Shown here in pieces: positions 42,818-52,092 of a DNA stretch of 64,000 nucleotides. The position numbers and the translations under genes are program-made. This DNA is from Nostoc sp. B(2019) (GTDB lineage Bacteria > Cyanobacteriota > Cyanobacteriia > Cyanobacteriales > Nostocaceae). Below the pieces are notes generated by a model that saw only the letters and a program-made list of their open reading frames with translations, was not told where the DNA came from and searched no databases. The stretch spans positions 203,775 through 267,774 of the forward strand of contig NZ_WVID01000006.1 in the NCBI RefSeq assembly GCF_010091925.1, given 5' to 3'. Numbering within the stretch: the first letter of the stretch is position 1; the number at the start of each line of letters is the position of its first letter.

Positions 42818-42976
42818 TCTTAACCTCATAGATAGGCTTTTTCATCACAATAGAACTCTTTTGGGAGTAATATCTTCTATCTTGAGACAAGTACGATCAT
42901 TCAATCTCAAGTAGAGAATTTCTTGTCAGCATCTACGGGCATTATAGAAATTGATATATTAAAGAGCAATTTTCAA

Positions 42977-43447
42977 ATGGCCATTTACTTTTATAAAGTT
43001 TGGCAGCCTTATGGCTGTTTTTCTAACTTTTCTCCCCACGGAATCCACATCCAGGGAACTTACTGGTCAACAGTTGAGCATTATTATCAAGCACAAAAGT
43101 TTGTGGGCAGTATAGATGCGGTGATTATACCCCTCATCCATGCTGCTGCAACCCCAGAAGAAGCTGCTGCTTTAGGTCGTTGTAGCACCCGCAAATGTCG
43201 TCAAGACTGGGATTTGGTCAAAACTCAAGTTATGCGAGAAGCTGTACTTAAAAAATTTCTCACTCATGCTGAGATTAGAGAAGTTCTCTTGACTACAGAA
43301 GATGAAATTTTGGTGGAAAACTCCCCAACTGATTATTTCTGGGGTTGTGGTGCTAATAAAACCGGTGACAACCATCTCGGTAAAATTCTCATGAGTGTGC
43401 GTGAAGAAATCCGCAAGTTAATATTTTTGTCAGCAATTTACGAATAG
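42977..43447 (+). CDS. NADAR-family protein (YbiA-like N-glycosidase)
   Basis: A 156-residue NADAR domain: IYFYKVWQPYGCFSNFSPHG at the start, YWSTVEHYYQAQKFVGS with the catalytic-type Glu, ALGRCSTRKCRQDWD and YFWGCGANKTGDNHLGKILM at the end. NADAR proteins such as YbiA cut the N-glycosidic bond of reactive riboflavin intermediates, and others remove ADP-ribose from guanine, linking them to ADP-ribosylating toxins. Which activity this one has is not visible. The frame runs back to a TTG at 42923, but ATG 42977 gives the normal family start. Confidence 0.9.
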   Translation: MAIYFYKVWQPYGCFSNFSPHGIHIQGTYWSTVEHYYQAQKFVGSIDAVIIPLIHAAATPEEAAALGRCSTRKCRQDWDLVKTQVMREAVLKKFLTHAEIREVLLTTEDEILVENSPTDYFWGCGANKTGDNHLGKILMSVREEIRKLIFLSAIYE

Positions 43448-43804: not shown

Positions 43805-46585
43805 ATGACATTTACTGATAAACCAAAAGAGTTGCAGCAAAGTTTAGATCAAGAAAGTTTGCTGCACCAGATGACAAACCATATCAGGCGATCGCTCGAA
43901 CTCCAAGATATATTAACAACTACCGTTGCTGAAGTTCGGACATTTTTGGATACAGATCGGGTGAAGGTATATCGGTTTACTGCCGATGGTAGTGGTGAAG
44001 TTGTTGCCGAATCCATCTGTGAGCAACGTCTACCATCTCTATTAGGGTTGCACTTCCCAGCTCATGATATTCCCCAAGAAGCAAGAGAGATGTTTGTCTC
44101 AGCGCGGCAACGTGCAATTGTGGATGTAGCTAACGGGAAGATAGGACTATCACCTCTACAGTCAAAAGAGACTGGCGAAAGCTTACAAACTGAGAATATC
44201 TTATATCGGCAAGTAGACCCGTGCCATGTTCAATACTTGAAAACAATGGGCGTACAGTCTTCGGTAGTAGTGCCAATTTTACATTGTTACCCCAAAGAAC
44301 AATCGGCAAAGCTTGAATTGTGGGGATTGTTAGTATCCCATCACAGTCAACCACGAACGATTTTGAAGCGGGAACTGAATGTATTGCAGCAAGTTGCTGA
44401 TCAAGTAGCGATCGCGATCGCTCAAAGTAACTTACTTACCGAAGCCCGTACCAAGCAAGAGCTAGAAGCCACTATCAACCGAGTGACTACACTATTGCAT
44501 AGATTGCCCACAATCCAGTTGCAGGAAGCATTAGAAGAAGTCATTACTGCCCTTAGCGGAGTAGGTGGCAGACTTTACATTGAACAGAGTGAAGAACTGC
44601 ACACTTCAGGTGTCCAGCCGATAATACCTTATGAATTAGAAAACAATGTCATCGAACAACATCCTGTGTGGCGAAACTGGATAGCTGAGTGTAAGCCAGG
44701 TAATGTTTGGGCAATTACCGACCTTTATAAAGAACCGCGTTTGCGAGTTTTGGCTTTAGCATTCCAACCAACTCGGATTCGGGGAATCATGGTGATTCCC
44801 CTACACTACCGCGAAAAATTTATCGGTGTTTTGAGCATTTTTCGCTCTGAATTTGACACAGAAATCTTCTGGGCAGGACAATGTGACGAGAATCGGCGAC
44901 AACTGCTACCTCAGCTTTCCTTTGAGGTTTGGCGAGAGCAAAAAAAGGGGCAAGCATCTGAGTGGAAACCGGAAGAAATCTCACTAGCACAAGCCTTGTA
45001 CTTTCAATTCTCAATGACAATTCAGCAGCAGCAAATGTATAAACAGGTACAAGCGCTGAATGCCAACTTAGAACGTCGAGTGCAAGAGCAAACTGCTGAA
45101 CTCGAACAATCGTTACTGCTTACCAAGGTACTCAAGCAAGTCACGGATCAGATTCGCAGTACATTGGACTTACAAACTATTCTGCAAACCATCGTGCAGC
45201 AAGTTCGCCCCCTGCTAAATTCAGACCGGGTGGTGATTTTTCAACTAGAGAGTGTATCAGTGATTGTTGAAGAGATTAACGGCAACTGGCCGTCAGTTTT
45301 GGGGGTAAAAGCGCTACCAGAATGCTTTCCTGATGAGTATACTCGTCTATACTTTCAGGGCAGAGTCCGGGCAATTAATAACGTATCAACGGCTTCTTTG
45401 AGTGCTTGTCATCAAGAGTTTTTGCAGAGTTTGCAAGTGCAAGCCAACTTAATTGTCCCCATTAACATAGGTACGCAAGCATGGGGATTACTTATTGCCC
45501 ATCAGTGTGAGGCTCCTAGAACTTGGCAAGATGCGGAAATTGATTTTTTGCAACAGCTAGCAGATCAAGCAGCGATCGCCATTCAGCAAGCACAACTCTA
45601 CGAACAAACCTGTGCTGCGGAAGCTGAAGCCAGAACTCAAGCCGCACAGTTAGAGCGTACCTTGTTTGAACTTCAAGAAACACAGACAAAGTTAATTCAC
45701 ACTGAAAAAATGTCCAGCTTAGGGCAGTTAGTGGCGGGTATCGCTCACGAAATCAACAACCCCGTTAACTTTATCTACGGCAATCTCTGCCACGCTAATC
45801 AATACACCGAACAATTACTAGAAATTTTACACCTCTACCAATTACACTATCCTCACCCTGAAGGTGAAGTTCGCTCAGCAATAGATGCGATCGATTTTGA
45901 CTTTTTGGTACAAGATTTACCAAAAATCATCAATTCAATGCAAGTAGGAGCCGATCGCATTCGCTCAATAGTGCTGTCGTTACGAAATTTTTCTCGCCTA
46001 GATGAAGCTGAATACAAGCTCGTTAACTTACATGAAGGCATAGACAATACTTTACTAATTTTGCAGCATCGACTGAAATCAAATGCTGAGTTTCCTGGCA
46101 TTGAAGTAATCAAAGACTATGGCGATTTGCCACTAGTAGAATGCTATGCAGGACAGATGAATCAGGTATTTATGAACATTATCAGTAATGCCATTGATGC
46201 TCTGATACAGGATAAAGAAGAAGCGGGAGAATTGGAGAGTGGGAGAGTGAATAAAGCTGGGGAACTCTCCGCTTCCCTAATCCCTACCATTCGGATTTCT
46301 ACCAAAATCTCAGCAGACAACTCTCATATCTTGGTTCGCATTGCTGACAATGGGCCTGGAATGACTGAAGAAGTGAAAAAGCTAATTTTTGATCCCTTTT
46401 TTACTACTAAGCCTGTGGGTAGGGGTACAGGATTGGGATTAGCAATTAGCTATCAGATTATTGTAGAAAAGCATGGTGGAGTAATGGAGTGCATCACCGA
46501 ACCTGGTAAAGGTACAGAGTTCTGGATTGAGATTCCCCTTAAACCTCCAAGCAGAGTCAATAGTCAACAGCAGCTAGGCGATTAA
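43805..46585 (+). CDS. Cph2-like phytochrome histidine kinase with added cyanobacteriochrome GAF
   Basis: 926 residues. GAF1 (about 20-210) has the phytochrome DIP motif (FPAHDIP, 84-90) and Cys140-His141 in [14 protein letters not shown], the bilin-binding pair. A PHY-like domain (220-415) carries LSFEVW (371-376), the phytochrome tongue signature. GAF3 (435-600) has PECF (505-508) and Cys535-His536 (SACHQEFL), as in two-Cys cyanobacteriochromes, with Pro instead of the Asp of DXCF. The kinase has His648 ([10 protein letters not shown]), [21 protein letters not shown] and [11 protein letters not shown]. It should be a light-sensing kinase with two chromophore sites. No response regulator is adjacent. 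Confidence 0.88.
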
Positions 46586-47230: not shown

Positions 47231-48001
47231 ATGTCAATTATTGCGCTCAGAGCATGGTATCTTCAGGATTATGAGCCGATTCCAGAACTGGAAAAACGTC
47301 CGCCAGATATTCGCCTAAGTAAAAAAAGTCTTCTGAAAACAGGGTTGCGAGCAGACTTTTTGGAAGAAAGCGACGAAGTTAAAAAATCAACTTGGTTTAG
47401 GCATTATCTGGAAGGGGAAAATATTGAATTTTATATTGAGGGTAGTGGCGGCTATTGTGTAGCTAACATTGACTTGATAAGTCATGAAATTTATTTCACC
47501 AAGCAAGCGTTGTTAGCTCAGTTGGAACCAACGATTTTTTTGTGCTATCAAACTGAGTATGCCGCAGCTAGTGATGTCCTAAGAGAAGAACTGCAAAAAG
47601 GTTTGGCAACTTTAAACTTGCGATCGCGTCTCCCTTTAGCATTAGTAGAATCCTATCGACCTAGTAATGCTCCTCTACGCCTTAACCGCACCATCATGCG
47701 AAAAATTCGTAAGAGCTTGCTATTTATTGCAGACACCACACCCATTACTAGCATCGATGGCAAAGAAACCCTTCAACTGATTCCTAGTCCAAATGTCTGT
47801 ATTGAAATTGGTTATGCCATCCAAAGTAAGCGCTCTGAACAAATTTTACTAGCACAAATGCAACGCCCAAATTTAGATGGGCAATTTCCCTTTGACTTAC
47901 CCACGCAGCAAATTTTGCAATTCCGAGACAGTAAAGAACTAAATAAAATTTTGACAGAAGCGATCAAAAGCCAGCTAGCACGATTTAAATTGTTTTTTTG
48001 A
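47231..48001 (+). CDS. protein with TIR-like/nucleotide-binding Rossmann domain
   Basis: A 256-residue soluble protein, not firmly recognised. Residues 95-255 look like a Rossmann-type domain: strand TIFLCYQTEYAAASDVLREEL, a strand SLLFIADTTP, then SPNVCIEIGYAIQSKRSEQILL and PFDLPTQQILQF. The PNVxxEIGYAI motif is like that of TIR-like NADase and nucleoside-cleaving proteins (compare RQNVxFELG in CapN/TIR-like domains), with its Glu in the expected place. Residues 1-90 are a separate N-terminal part (CVANIDLISHEIYFTKQALL). This makes it a candidate NAD- or nucleotide-hydrolysing effector; the assignment is a weak inference. Confidence 0.6.
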   Translation: MSIIALRAWYLQDYEPIPELEKRPPDIRLSKKSLLKTGLRADFLEESDEVKKSTWFRHYLEGENIEFYIEGSGGYCVANIDLISHEIYFTKQALLAQLEPTIFLCYQTEYAAASDVLREELQKGLATLNLRSRLPLALVESYRPSNAPLRLNRTIMRKIRKSLLFIADTTPITSIDGKETLQLIPSPNVCIEIGYAIQSKRSEQILLAQMQRPNLDGQFPFDLPTQQILQFRDSKELNKILTEAIKSQLARFKLFF

Positions 48002-48105: not shown

Positions 48106-51100
48106 CTAGTGTAGCGGAATCGTAATTACAAACTCTGCTCCCTCGCCTGGTGCTGAAATACACTGGAGTTGACCACGATGGTTTTTGACAACAATTTGAT
48201 AGCTAATTGATAATCCCATGCCAGTACCTTTGCCCACAGGTTTTGTAGTGAAGAAAGGGTCAAATAGCCGGTTGCATACTTCCTCGGTCATCCCTAGACC
48301 ATTATCAGCAATGCGGATCATTACGTACTCTTCTTGGACAAGGGTGCTAATACGAATTTGTGGAGAATTCATTTGTCCTAATCTATGGGAAGTCACTTGA
48401 AGGGTGTCTATATCCTTTATCCCTTGTTGAGAGTTGTTTTCTAATAACATGGGCGCTTCTCTACGAGACGCTACGCGAACGCCTTCCCGCAGGGTATGAC
48501 CAATGACAAATGACTCTTCCAAAGCATCGATCGCATTTGTCAACAGATTCATAAATACTTGATTCATCTGTCCGGCGTGACACACTATCTGTGGCAGGTT
48601 GCCGTATTCCTGGATAACTTGGATTTCGGGACGTTCTAGTTTAGCTTTCAGGCGACTTTGCAACAACAGCAAGGTGCTATCAATACCTTCATGAATATCC
48701 GTTCGCTTCATGCCGTCTTCATCTAGACGAGAGAAATTGCGTAAAGATATGACAATCTGCCGAATGCGTTCGGCTCCCATATTCATAGAATCTAGAATTT
48801 TAGGCAAATCTTGGCTGAGGAAATCTAAATCAATCGTGTGGATTTCTTGTTTTATTTCTGGTACTGGTGGGCAGTAGCGTTGATAAAGTTCTACCAAGTG
48901 CAGCAAATCTCTAACATGCTCACTGGCGTGGCTGATATTACCGTAAATGAAATTGACTGGATTATTGATTTCATGGGCAATACCTGCTACTAACTGTCCC
49001 AAACTGGACATTTTTTCAGTTTGAATTAGTTGAGCCTGGGTTTGTTGAAGTTCTAGCAAAGCCTCTTGTAGTTGCTGTGCTTTTTCTTGGGCAGTTTGGG
49101 CAGCGATGCGGCTTTGTGTGTAAAGTTTGGCTTGGTCAATTGCGATCGCTAGTTGATCTGTAACTGCTTGTAGCAACTCTACTTCATTGTCCAGCCAAGG
49201 CCGGAAGCCACTACAGTAACCGCAGCTAAATGCCCCAATTTCACCAGATTGAGTGTGTACAGGCAATGACATAAAGGCGGTGAAACCAAAATCATGCAAA
49301 AATTGTTGTGCGATGCGTTCACCGGAGGTGGGCGTTTCGCCATCGCCTACATTTTTAACATCATCGATGCGGATGATTTCTCTGTTCAAAGTTTTCGTTG
49401 CTATTAGTTCAACTTCTGCATGAGTTGCTTGGGCTTTCAGTAGACTGGGTAATGTGAAATTTTTCGCCTCATATACACATTCCCAGTAGGGTAGCTCAGC
49501 GTTTTGTCGATACAAAAAGAAGGCGCAGCGATCAATCTGGAATAAGTTGCGGATTTCCTGTACTGCGGTTTCTAAAATGTAATTTAGTTCCAGGGAAGCT
49601 CGAATTTGACTGGCAAGACGGTTAAGTATTGCTTCCCGCTGGGCGATCGCTCTAAATTTAGCTTCTGATTTCCGTAGGGCGGTTTCTGTGCGCTGGCGCT
49701 GTAGCTCTGCTGTGGCTCTAGCGGCAAAGATACTGACAATAGCTTTGCAGCGTTCCTCTTGCAATATCGGCTTCGTATCCAACACGCAAAGATGACCTAT
49801 CGATATACCAAATGTATCCACAAGTGGCGCTCCCAAGTAACTTTCTACGTTTAGCGCTAGTAAGTCCTCGTCTTGTGGAAATAGTTGCTGTACACCAGAG
49901 GAGTAGCAACGCATCCCCTCTTGTAATACAACTTCGCAAGGAGTATTAGCTAGGTCATACTCGAAAGGTTCTAAAAGCTTGTCATCAGCCCAGAATGATA
50001 AAACTCTCGCTCTGCTGAGATCTTCGCCGATTCTTTCTGCAAGTACAACGTAACGGACTCCCAGAGCATCTGCCAAATGACGCACTAAGGCAGAGAAAAA
50101 TTCTTTGCCCGTCACCGCAGCTGTTCCGGCTACAAGAGCTTGCAAAGTTTCCTCTGCTTGTTTGCGTAAGCGAAGCTCGTCGTAGACATCGGTGATGTCT
50201 CGATAAACGCCGCGATAACCTAAGTAATTGCCGGATGCATCAAAGAAAGGAACTCCATTGGTTTCCAGAACAACCAATTGTCCATGCTTGTGAAGATTTT
50301 TGTTTTCGAGATTGATTAAAGGCTGTTTGGAGTTGGTTAGATCCTGAAAAAGTTTTTTTACTCGGCTCGCTTCTGCTGGTAGCATCAAGTCAAAAAAAGT
50401 TTTGCCTAATACTTCTTCTGGCTCGTATCCCAAAATGTCACGGATTTTTTGGCTAACGTAAGTGTAAACTCCTTGGCGATCTAATTGCCATACCCCATCG
50501 TTGGTGGTTTCTACAAGATGGCGAAAGCGCTCCTCGCTTTCTATTAGTGCTTCTTCGGCTTGTTTGCGTTTGATGCCAATGGCAATATCTTGAGCAGCAA
50601 ATTCTAGAGCGATGAAAGTAGATTCCGTTACGGCTTGCCGAGAAAACATAGCTATAACCCCTACAGTCTCACCTTCAACAATTAGAGGATAGCCTGCAAA
50701 AGCAACCATCCCCTCACACTGTGCCCATTCTCTATTACTCACTCGCGGATCTGTCAATACAGAGTTGGTCAAGTGGGGTTTGCCTTCTTGGGCAATCAAA
50801 CCAATTTTGAATTGTCCGACTGGCACGCGTCTATGGGGCCCGTCAATATGGGTGTACATCCCAGAACTGACTTGCAACTCTAGTACATTCTCCTGTTTGT
50901 TCAGTATCCAGAGGCGAGCAAATGCGGCATCAATATGTTTAACTAAAGCTTCAGTGCAGCGGCGCATCATGCACTGTAAGGTGGGACTCTGAGCAAGGGC
51001 AGCGTCTACATCGGCACGAAAATCCGCTAATCGCGCTCGCTCTGCTAATGCCTCTTGCGTTTGTTTGCGATCGGTAGTGTCATGACAAATACCAACGAAG

Positions 51101-52092
51101 TACAAAGCATTGCCATTGGCATCTTTTATAGTAGATGAGTTACTTGTATGCCATCGCCAATCGCCATCTTTATGTTTTACCCGATATTCAATTGGGTCTT
51201 GCTTTTCGCCTATTGTTAAAACTCTTTGGAAATAATCTGCACAGATTGGTACATCATCTGGATGCACAAAGGGAATAAAAGATTTGCCTTCAACCTCCGC
51301 AACCTCATGTCCTAAGATGTCAGTCCAGTTGGGAGAAATATATGAAAATACTCCCTCAAGCGTTAGTGCAAAAATAATGTTATTAGCGTTTTCTACAATG
51401 CTGCGAAACTTGACATCATTTTCTATCAATGCTAGTTGCATTTTGTCGCTGACGTGGCGGACAAGAACTATGATTTGCTGCTCTTGTAAAGGTAATAACC
51501 TAGCTTCAAAATTACTGTTCTCTGTTGATAGTGGTAATGTATATTCAAAACTAACTAAAGATTTAGTCTCTAGTACTTGATTTATTGCTTGCCGAAAGCG
51601 TATTCCTACAGCAGGAGGTAGACATTCTAGCAGCGATTTGCCGTGAACAAATCCCGGTAAATTATCCAAACACTGCGTCTTTCCAGCTTTGTAATCTAGG
51701 ATGGTTCCATCAGTATTGAGGCGTAAATATATATCGGGAATCACTTGCAAAATTGCTGCCAATTCTGATGTCTTGTGGCGTAACTTTTCTTCAGTTGCTT
51801 GGCGCTTTGTGATTTCAGATTGTAGTTGCTCTAGTGCATTGATTAATTCTGTTGCTGGTTCCTCAACGCCCATTTCTAAGTCTTGATTTGTTGCATCTAA
51901 GACTACTTCTGGTAATTTGTTGAGACTCAAAGAGAAGCCTGTAGACGCTTCGCTTGGCTTGCTTCCCCGTACAGATACAGAAGCGGCTTGTTCTTCGACA
52001 TCGCTGATGTCTATTACGGTATCTATCATCTGTAGCGTTTTTCCAGTTTCGTCGATTTGGTTAATGGAGTCTTGCACCCTTTCAGGAAACAC
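48106..52092 (-). CDS. large PAS/GAF sensor histidine kinase
   Basis: 1328 residues: a short coiled start, three PAS domains (about 110-220, 225-345, 520-640; for instance GILGYEPEEVLGKTFFDLM-like segments), GAF domains (about 350-510, 650-810, 820-990) and a kinase core with [13 protein letters not shown] near residue 1055, NQVFMNLLTNAIDAL, DNGLGM and GTGMGLSISYQI. The kinase core is almost the same as in the phytochrome-like kinase at 43805, so they are paralogues. None of the GAF domains shows the bilin Cys-His pair. Between N box and G1 box a repeat-encoded insert (REGVRVASRREAP) occurs. Start is GTG at 52092. The signal sensed is unknown. Confidence 0.87.
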   Translation of the reverse strand: MFPERVQDSINQIDETGKTLQMIDTVIDISDVEEQAASVSVRGSKPSEASTGFSLSLNKLPEVVLDATNQDLEMGVEEPATELINALEQLQSEITKRQATEEKLRHKTSELAAILQVIPDIYLRLNTDGTILDYKAGKTQCLDNLPGFVHGKSLLECLPPAVGIRFRQAINQVLETKSLVSFEYTLPLSTENSNFEARLLPLQEQQIIVLVRHVSDKMQLALIENDVKFRSIVENANNIIFALTLEGVFSYISPNWTDILGHEVAEVEGKSFIPFVHPDDVPICADYFQRVLTIGEKQDPIEYRVKHKDGDWRWHTSNSSTIKDANGNALYFVGICHDTTDRKQTQEALAERARLADFRADVDAALAQSPTLQCMMRRCTEALVKHIDAAFARLWILNKQENVLELQVSSGMYTHIDGPHRRVPVGQFKIGLIAQEGKPHLTNSVLTDPRVSNREWAQCEGMVAFAGYPLIVEGETVGVIAMFSRQAVTESTFIALEFAAQDIAIGIKRKQAEEALIESEERFRHLVETTNDGVWQLDRQGVYTYVSQKIRDILGYEPEEVLGKTFFDLMLPAEASRVKKLFQDLTNSKQPLINLENKNLHKHGQLVVLETNGVPFFDASGNYLGYRGVYRDITDVYDELRLRKQAEETLQALVAGTAAVTGKEFFSALVRHLADALGVRYVVLAERIGEDLSRARVLSFWADDKLLEPFEYDLANTPCEVVLQEGMRCYSSGVQQLFPQDEDLLALNVESYLGAPLVDTFGISIGHLCVLDTKPILQEERCKAIVSIFAARATAELQRQRTETALRKSEAKFRAIAQREAILNRLASQIRASLELNYILETAVQEIRNLFQIDRCAFFLYRQNAELPYWECVYEAKNFTLPSLLKAQATHAEVELIATKTLNREIIRIDDVKNVGDGETPTSGERIAQQFLHDFGFTAFMSLPVHTQSGEIGAFSCGYCSGFRPWLDNEVELLQAVTDQLAIAIDQAKLYTQSRIAAQTAQEKAQQLQEALLELQQTQAQLIQTEKMSSLGQLVAGIAHEINNPVNFIYGNISHASEHVRDLLHLVELYQRYCPPVPEIKQEIHTIDLDFLSQDLPKILDSMNMGAERIRQIVISLRNFSRLDEDGMKRTDIHEGIDSTLLLLQSRLKAKLERPEIQVIQEYGNLPQIVCHAGQMNQVFMNLLTNAIDALEESFVIGHTLREGVRVASRREAPMLLENNSQQGIKDIDTLQVTSHRLGQMNSPQIRISTLVQEEYVMIRIADNGLGMTEEVCNRLFDPFFTTKPVGKGTGMGLSISYQIVVKNHRGQLQCISAPGEGAEFVITIPLH
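48451..48512. repeat. palindromic repeat inside the histidine-kinase gene
   Basis: GCTTCTCTACGAGACGCTAC and the following GCGAACGCC belong to the same dispersed palindrome family found at 31530, 42308 and 58740. Here it is read in frame as EGVRVASRREAP in the ATPase part of the kinase. Confidence 0.75.

Follow-up and report, generated by a model that had tools for sequence, protein, structure and literature searches.

The window, by which we mean the whole stretch of 64,000 nucleotides analyzed from Nostoc sp. B(2019), holds an open reading frame that is best explained as a two-bilin phytochrome-cyanobacteriochrome (CBCR) histidine kinase of the All2699/AphC kind, in which the CBCR domain, GAF3, would switch by means of two cysteines; we give this full reading a probability of roughly 0.7. 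Less ordinary is the GAF3 lineage, whose members, judged by their aligned residues, carry both of the predicted pigment-binding cysteines without the acidic residue that usually accompanies them. A natural lineage with P, S, L, G, Q, K or A in place of that Asp offers a ready-made set for testing the role of the residue in two-Cys photocycles, and a conserved neighboring gene with a NADAR domain is an initial clue to what might lie under the control of the sensor.

Gene and domain architecture

The gene is a single open reading frame of the + strand (43805-46585), opening with ATG and encoding 926 aa, and its frame, Pfam and genome searches agree on a knotless phytochrome, a CBCR and a histidine kinase in the order GAF1, PHY-like GAF2 with a tongue, CBCR GAF3 and kinase. 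Pfam matches above the cut-offs were obtained for GAF (6e-47), PHY (2e-9, residues 325-409) and HATPase_c (1.4e-23), and the HisKA match fell under its cut-off (22.3 against 26.9 bits). By Pfam and alignment the kinase part occupies 45677-46549 (+ strand), with H648 in an A-H-E-I-N-N-P box and HATPase_c at residues 785-913; the single histidine kinase that the earlier note had placed on this chain is therefore there, with its HisKA part scoring sub-cut-off. Attachment residues for both bilin domains and a histidine kinase are present in one chain, as in proteins of the All2699/AphC type, an assignment that goes by the attachment residues and includes the sub-cut-off HisKA match. The host genome of 7.4 Mb gave three bilin reductase matches, and among named records it is Komarekiella that supplies the nearest orthologs (91-93% across the protein).

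GAF1 (residues 16-210; 43850-44434, + strand), a knotless-phytochrome bilin domain by alignment with chain 6OZA and by fold comparison, is colinear over its length with this All2699 GAF1 chain (3.7e-68). In register are the phytochrome DIP motif D88-I89-P90 (44066-44074, +), which reads F-P-A-H-D-I-P, and Cys140-His141 (44222-44227, +), the predicted bilin attachment; D88, C140 and H141 each occur in 88 of the 90 rows of the ortholog alignment described below, the window included. Only about 15-20 residues precede this domain, which has the Cys-His and DIP of a phytochrome GAF and no PAS or knot, as is typical of the knotless (Cph2-like, group II) phytochromes. The second GAF/PHY-like domain of such proteins is also present (residues 211-430; 44435-45094, +), as judged from Pfam, chain alignments and fold, with a tongue (44870-44932, +) that bears WAG at 356-358 and P-Q-L-S-F-E-V-W at 369-376, Gln370 taking the place of the PRxSF Arg in these alignments. 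This part matches the GAF-PHY chains 8W26 (9.4e-23) and Cph2 4BWI (3.1e-9), and the best fold match of the GAF1-PHY model was SyB-Cph1 8W26 (Z 34.7, rmsd 2.4, 367 aligned), with Cph2 4BWI at Z 28.8 (rmsd 3.0, 343 aligned); the tongue was modeled poorly (pLDDT <50 at residues 353-371). The proposal of a Cph2-like GAF-PHY is thus borne out by the 6OZA, 4BWI and 8W26 alignments and by Pfam PHY.

Residue 370 (44912-44914) is Gln in 55 and Arg in 28 of the 90 rows. For All2699, PMC6696110 describes tongue Arg380 as bridging to GAF1 Asp87 and reports that tongue variants, R380I among them, left the photochemistry intact; because Gln370 replaces the Arg in the window protein, a tongue-to-Asp bridge of that type cannot form in the same way. 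Three rows (L026, L060 and L065) have lost one or both of the GAF1 Cys-His residues and keep the GAF3 pair.

A two-cysteine pocket without the usual Asp

GAF3 (residues 443-604; 45131-45616, + strand) is a two-Cys CBCR domain by TePixJ alignment, fold and tree. Against TePixJ 3VV4 (2.8e-30) it aligns gapless from the second-Cys motif through the Cys-His pair, so that P505 stands opposite the TePixJ Asp, C507 opposite the second Cys and C535-H536 opposite the Cys-His pair; the TePixJ residues aligned here are presumably D492, C494 and C522. The motif P505-E506-C507-F508 (45317-45328, +) is accordingly, by alignment, conservation and tree, a DXCF motif with its Asp replaced and C507 as the second Cys, and Cys535-His536 (45407-45412, +) is, by alignment and conservation, the predicted bilin attachment of this domain. 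GAF3 therefore has the second Cys and the canonical Cys-His of the DXCF CBCRs and lacks their Asp, which occurs at position 505 in 6 of the 90 rows. Both the CBCR GAF with two correctly placed cysteines and the exchange of the Asp for Pro, as the earlier note had described them, hold up in this gapless alignment, and the Cys-His pairs, whose displacement from the chromophore positions had been named as a finding against the proposal, match those positions in the 6OZA and TePixJ alignments. The label "DXCF-like" fits the second Cys and the Cys-His pair; the Asp, missing throughout the ortholog subclade, makes this a derived two-Cys domain rather than one odd protein.

The GAF3 model resembles the dual-sensor kinase 6OAQ (Z 22.6, rmsd 2.5, 176 aligned) and blue-state TePixJ 4GLQ (Z 21.4, rmsd 2.5, 146 aligned), scores that indicate the fold class only, since many phytochrome GAFs score within 1. 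AlphaFold confidence is weak at the motif (mean pLDDT 58 for residues 495-504 and 68 for 505-514) and the model for this reason does not place Cys507; the structure models, which contain no bilin and are weak around Cys507 and in the tongue at 353-371, leave the mechanism undecided. The loop before VIVEE is about three residues shorter in the close branch than in more distant relatives. Chains 6BHN and 3W2Z we take to be NpR6012g4 and AnPixJg2.

Conservation among orthologs

Orthologs were drawn from a pattern scan of named genomes (77 loci), which is biased in that the patterns contain the motif itself, and from a whole-genome search of 60 genomes including the host's own, 49 of which gave a match at 1e-100, in many cases confined to the kinase part. 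Rows were retained when the match began no later than residue 30, reached at least residue 600 and scored more than 500 bits; after removal of identical rows, and with shorter fragments excluded, this left 90 rows, window included, among them a few with a GAF3 of another kind (L002, L107, L108, L113 and L114). C507 is kept in 85 of these 90 rows, and C535 and H536 in 87 each; like the counts for C140 and H141, these show that the residues are not there by chance. Position 505 is Pro in 41 rows and position 506 acidic in 61, and both vary widely while the neighboring C507 stays: among the 155 GAF3 columns C507 ranks 30th in conservation and position 505 ranks 141st.

A phylum-wide GAF3 search covered 386 genomes, 103 of which had a match at 1e-35, and 30 loci were taken. 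The best 25 of these after the window's own region (L233-L257) contributed 16 new distinct GAF3 rows, all 16 with the second Cys and the Cys-His and none with the Asp; the remaining five yielded four rows, with EECF (L259), HECF (L260), QECF (L261) and DDCF (L262), all with Cys-His. No acid is found at either 505 or 506 in 33 of the 115 rows that have the second Cys and lack the Asp. An acid shifted by one position, as E506 would be in an RcaE-like arrangement, had been considered as a universal compensation for the missing Asp and was rejected as not general, given these 33 rows.

Individual losses were also seen. L020 lacks C535, L031 lacks H536 and L061 has lost both cysteines and the His; L106 is without C507 and retains the Cys-His, and L114, one of the rows with another kind of GAF3, has neither. 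Second copies whose match starts at residue 1 and stops near residue 750, and which seem to lack most of the ATPase domain, occur at G006:C64:11403-13634, G007:C1:1759905-1762169 and G033:C1:4565032-4567281, and a same-genus genome holds an interrupted ortholog whose pieces match residues 1-397 and 663-926 (G003:C183:46013-48079). Elsewhere in the host genome (L131, G000:C21:175000-177500), a 191-aa frame consists of a single CBCR GAF, which has DDCF and Cys-His and leaves no space for an output domain.

Loss of the Asp within the GAF3 lineage

CBCR-type GAFs from all loci amounted to 369 distinct sequences, of which 267 were left after GAF1-type and short ones were dropped, and these were thinned to 185 and joined by seven solved references. 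The window GAF3 sits in a 75-row group that contains no reference (SH-aLRT 77), with nested subclades of 56 rows (89) and 49 rows (93), all supports having been verified on the unrerooted tree. The second Cys is present in 54 rows of the 56-row subclade, with Asp in none and Glu in four of them, and in 48 rows of the 49-row subclade, with Asp in none and Glu in one. The other 19 rows of the 75-row group include 18 with the second Cys, and these have 15 Asp, 2 Glu and 1 Lys. Outside the group, Asp is found in 45 and Glu in one of the 46 rows with both the second Cys and the Cys-His, a sample that is biased, as 38 of the 46, all with Asp, came from two DPCF-bearing queries in 100 genomes each; the other eight have seven Asp and one Glu. 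Among outside rows with the second Cys and no Cys-His, 23 of 25 have Asp. This outside control is weakened by its bias, which affects neither the counts of conserved residues nor the contrast seen inside the lineage.

Taken together, the Asp counts in the rest of the group and outside it suggest that an acidic residue was probably present in the ancestor and disappeared while the two cysteines remained, and the absence of the Asp across the ortholog subclade, with the cysteines staying, argues for a lineage trait rather than decay. We do not claim a single loss event, because parsimony requires five Asp changes over the whole tree and several inner branches are poorly supported. An earlier, smaller tree of 81 rows gave the same picture, with a 31-row group (95) containing a 23-row subclade without the Asp (96). 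Pro505 as a one-off error or a sign of decay was rejected on the same evidence of subclade-wide Asp absence and retained cysteines.

Gene neighborhood

The product of the upstream gene (42923-43447, + strand) has a NADAR domain (Pfam 6.8e-43). Of the 72 named loci with enough sequence, 65 have a NADAR gene upstream in the same orientation, usually 0.3-1.2 kb and at the farthest 2.2 kb away, and the linkage reaches beyond Nostocales to Kastovskya, Microseira and Trichocoleus. Among whole genomes it is within 2.5 kb of the kinase in 25 of 34, the host's own included, a count for which the kinase match was hand-picked among the matches listed with one place per genome; it includes the partial or interrupted copies G003, G036 and G037, and omits second copies and the broken copy G018, beside which none of its listed NADAR matches lies. 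NADAR genes are scarce, with one in the host genome and mostly one or two, up to four, per genome (present in 55 of 60 genomes); because they are so few, the linkage with the kinase is unlikely to arise by chance, a judgment uncorrected for the relatedness of the genomes. An anti-phage role was considered for the NADAR neighbor and for the kinase: in PADLOC, the NADAR product hit a single candidate family (PDC-M42C, 1.5e-14), and neither the kinase nor the gene downstream of it gave a match at 0.001. A literature search for NADAR with phytochrome or cyanobacteria returned none evidently on the NADAR-kinase pairing among the matches listed.

The downstream gene (47231-48001, + strand) is uncharacterised, has no Pfam match and follows the kinase in 48 of 71 loci. 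Further on, the opposite strand at 48106-52092 encodes another large PAS/GAF histidine kinase, for which L009-L114 gave no match over 60% of its length, the flanks of those loci being too short to hold it.

Proposed photochemistry and alternative readings

We propose that GAF1 carries phycocyanobilin on Cys140 and, covered by the tongue of the PHY-like domain, would switch between red- and far-red-absorbing states. GAF3 would bind a second bilin at Cys535, and the reversible addition of Cys507 to C10 would give a short-wavelength (violet or blue) state alongside a longer-wavelength state; both pockets may then signal through helical linkers to the one HisKA/HATPase unit. In phycocyanobilin proteins, according to PMC11480761, a highly conserved acidic residue stands beside the pyrrole nitrogens and bonds one of them, and in one plant phytochrome a backbone carbonyl does its job; PMC11284453 has the second Cys bonding C10 and thereby shortening the conjugated system. 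With the pyrrole-facing Asp gone, the two-Cys switch of GAF3 would have to run without that carboxylate. Backbone groups or the neighboring residue 506, Glu here, might substitute for it; or else the free bilin might be more easily deprotonated, so that the Cys adduct is favored and the color of the photoproduct depends on pH. We expect a two-Cys photocycle without the usual carboxylate, whose colors cannot be read from sequence. The carboxylate seems dispensable in this lineage, since the Leu and Lys of the RcaE triad are absent and the 33 rows noted above have no acid at 505 or 506. A more specific account, which we offer tentatively as possible and somewhat doubtful, is that the GAF3 lineage would run its two-Cys photocycle without the pyrrole-facing carboxylate that the other two-Cys CBCR domains of this sample retain, that the dark state would be a C10-thiol adduct favored by an uncharged bilin, that pH or residue 506 would determine the color of the photoproduct, and that the physiology sensed through the kinase would be the one in which the neighboring NADAR gene takes part. 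Two-Cys CBCRs without the Asp were sought by title or abstract start among the matches listed in the open-licence literature and no paper was found, a result from which we do not claim absence from print.

It is also conceivable, if unlikely, that the GAF3 bilin sits at Cys535 while Cys507 has a structural or redox role and forms no bond to C10. The domain would then be an ordinary switch with one Cys, such as a red/green or a red/orange one, like All2699 GAF3, which shifts from about 645 to 595 nm (PMC6696110). In favor of this reading, the Asp that usually accompanies the second Cys (in 45 of 46 outside rows, a biased sample, and in 15 of the 18 rows elsewhere in the lineage) is missing, and L106 keeps its Cys-His without C507. 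Against it, C507 persists in 85 of 90 rows beside two widely varying positions, and in one case, L061, C507 and C535-H536 were lost together, as expected if they share a job.

We consider it very improbable that GAF3 is related to the green/red CcaS/RcaE sensors and that its Glu506 has the protonating role of RcaE Glu217. The RcaE score is good (2e-34 for 8K9O), and Glu217, chain position 74 of 7CKV, aligns with E506. The RcaE triad, however, is Glu217, Leu249 and Lys261, a set that a literature search did not turn up in papers, and its other two residues are absent, Leu249 corresponding to H536 and Lys261 to N548. RcaE also falls outside both the 31-row group (support 95) and the 75-row group (support 77), so that neither the triad nor the tree assigns GAF3 to the green/red CBCRs, and an acid at 506 is limited to 61 of 90 rows, with the 33 of 115 lacking one at 505 as well. 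Least probable is that light is sensed by the phytochrome half alone, with the GAF3 of this lineage degenerate and serving as a linker or dimer module, a reading to which the lost Asp, the three-residue loop deletion in the branch and the missing attachment residues of L020, L031 and L061 would lend themselves, but Cys535 and His536 are each kept in 87 of 90 rows, the second Cys and the Cys-His in 16 of 16 new distinct rows of L233-L257, and in L026, L060 and L065 it is GAF1 that lost residues.

Comparison with known systems

The preferred reading, a phytochrome and a CBCR on one kinase, has its counterpart in All2699/AphC of Nostoc sp. PCC 7120 (UniProt Q8YTL8), which like the window protein consists of a knotless GAF1, a PHY-like GAF2 with a tongue, a CBCR GAF and a histidine kinase. 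Its autophosphorylation reportedly depends on both photostates (Chen et al. 2012). The two GAF1 domains are 62% identical, and the tongue has Arg380 in All2699 and Gln370 in the window protein. All2699 is a paralog: its likely ortholog in the host genome is a 1287-aa frame (G000:C21), 77% identical in GAF1, with CBCR domains that include ones without the second Cys, and we therefore rejected the idea that the window gene is All2699 itself. All2699 is described as having three GAF domains and a histidine kinase, with GAF1, the domain solved as 6OZA, and GAF3 each binding phycocyanobilin (PMC6696110), and in Cph2 a knotless module for red/far-red light shares the chain with a blue/green CBCR and with c-di-GMP domains (PMC5812497). 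The presence of two bilin sensors in a single protein, and on a single kinase, is consequently not new, given All2699 and, with other outputs, Cph2. Of the earlier interpretation, which is partly supported, the architecture with its attachment residues stands, the colors are unproven and the two-chromophore combination that formed its headline had already been described in those two proteins.

Synechocystis Cph2 (GAF-GAF 4BWI) shares with the window protein a knotless phytochrome and a CBCR in one polypeptide; it ends in GGDEF/EAL where the window protein ends in a kinase, and its CBCR is parted from the phytochrome by GGDEF-EAL. The PAS-less phytochrome SyB-Cph1 (GAF-PHY, 8W26), the best fold match to GAF1-PHY at Z 34.7, reads PLISF where the window tongue reads PQLSF in the aligned stretch, so that the PRxSF Arg is absent from both, and the solved fragment contains no CBCR. 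TePixJ (3VV4, 4GLQ), a DXCF CBCR, aligns gapless with the window GAF3 at both cysteines and the Cys-His, and differs from it in having the Asp in place of Pro505 and in belonging to another lineage.
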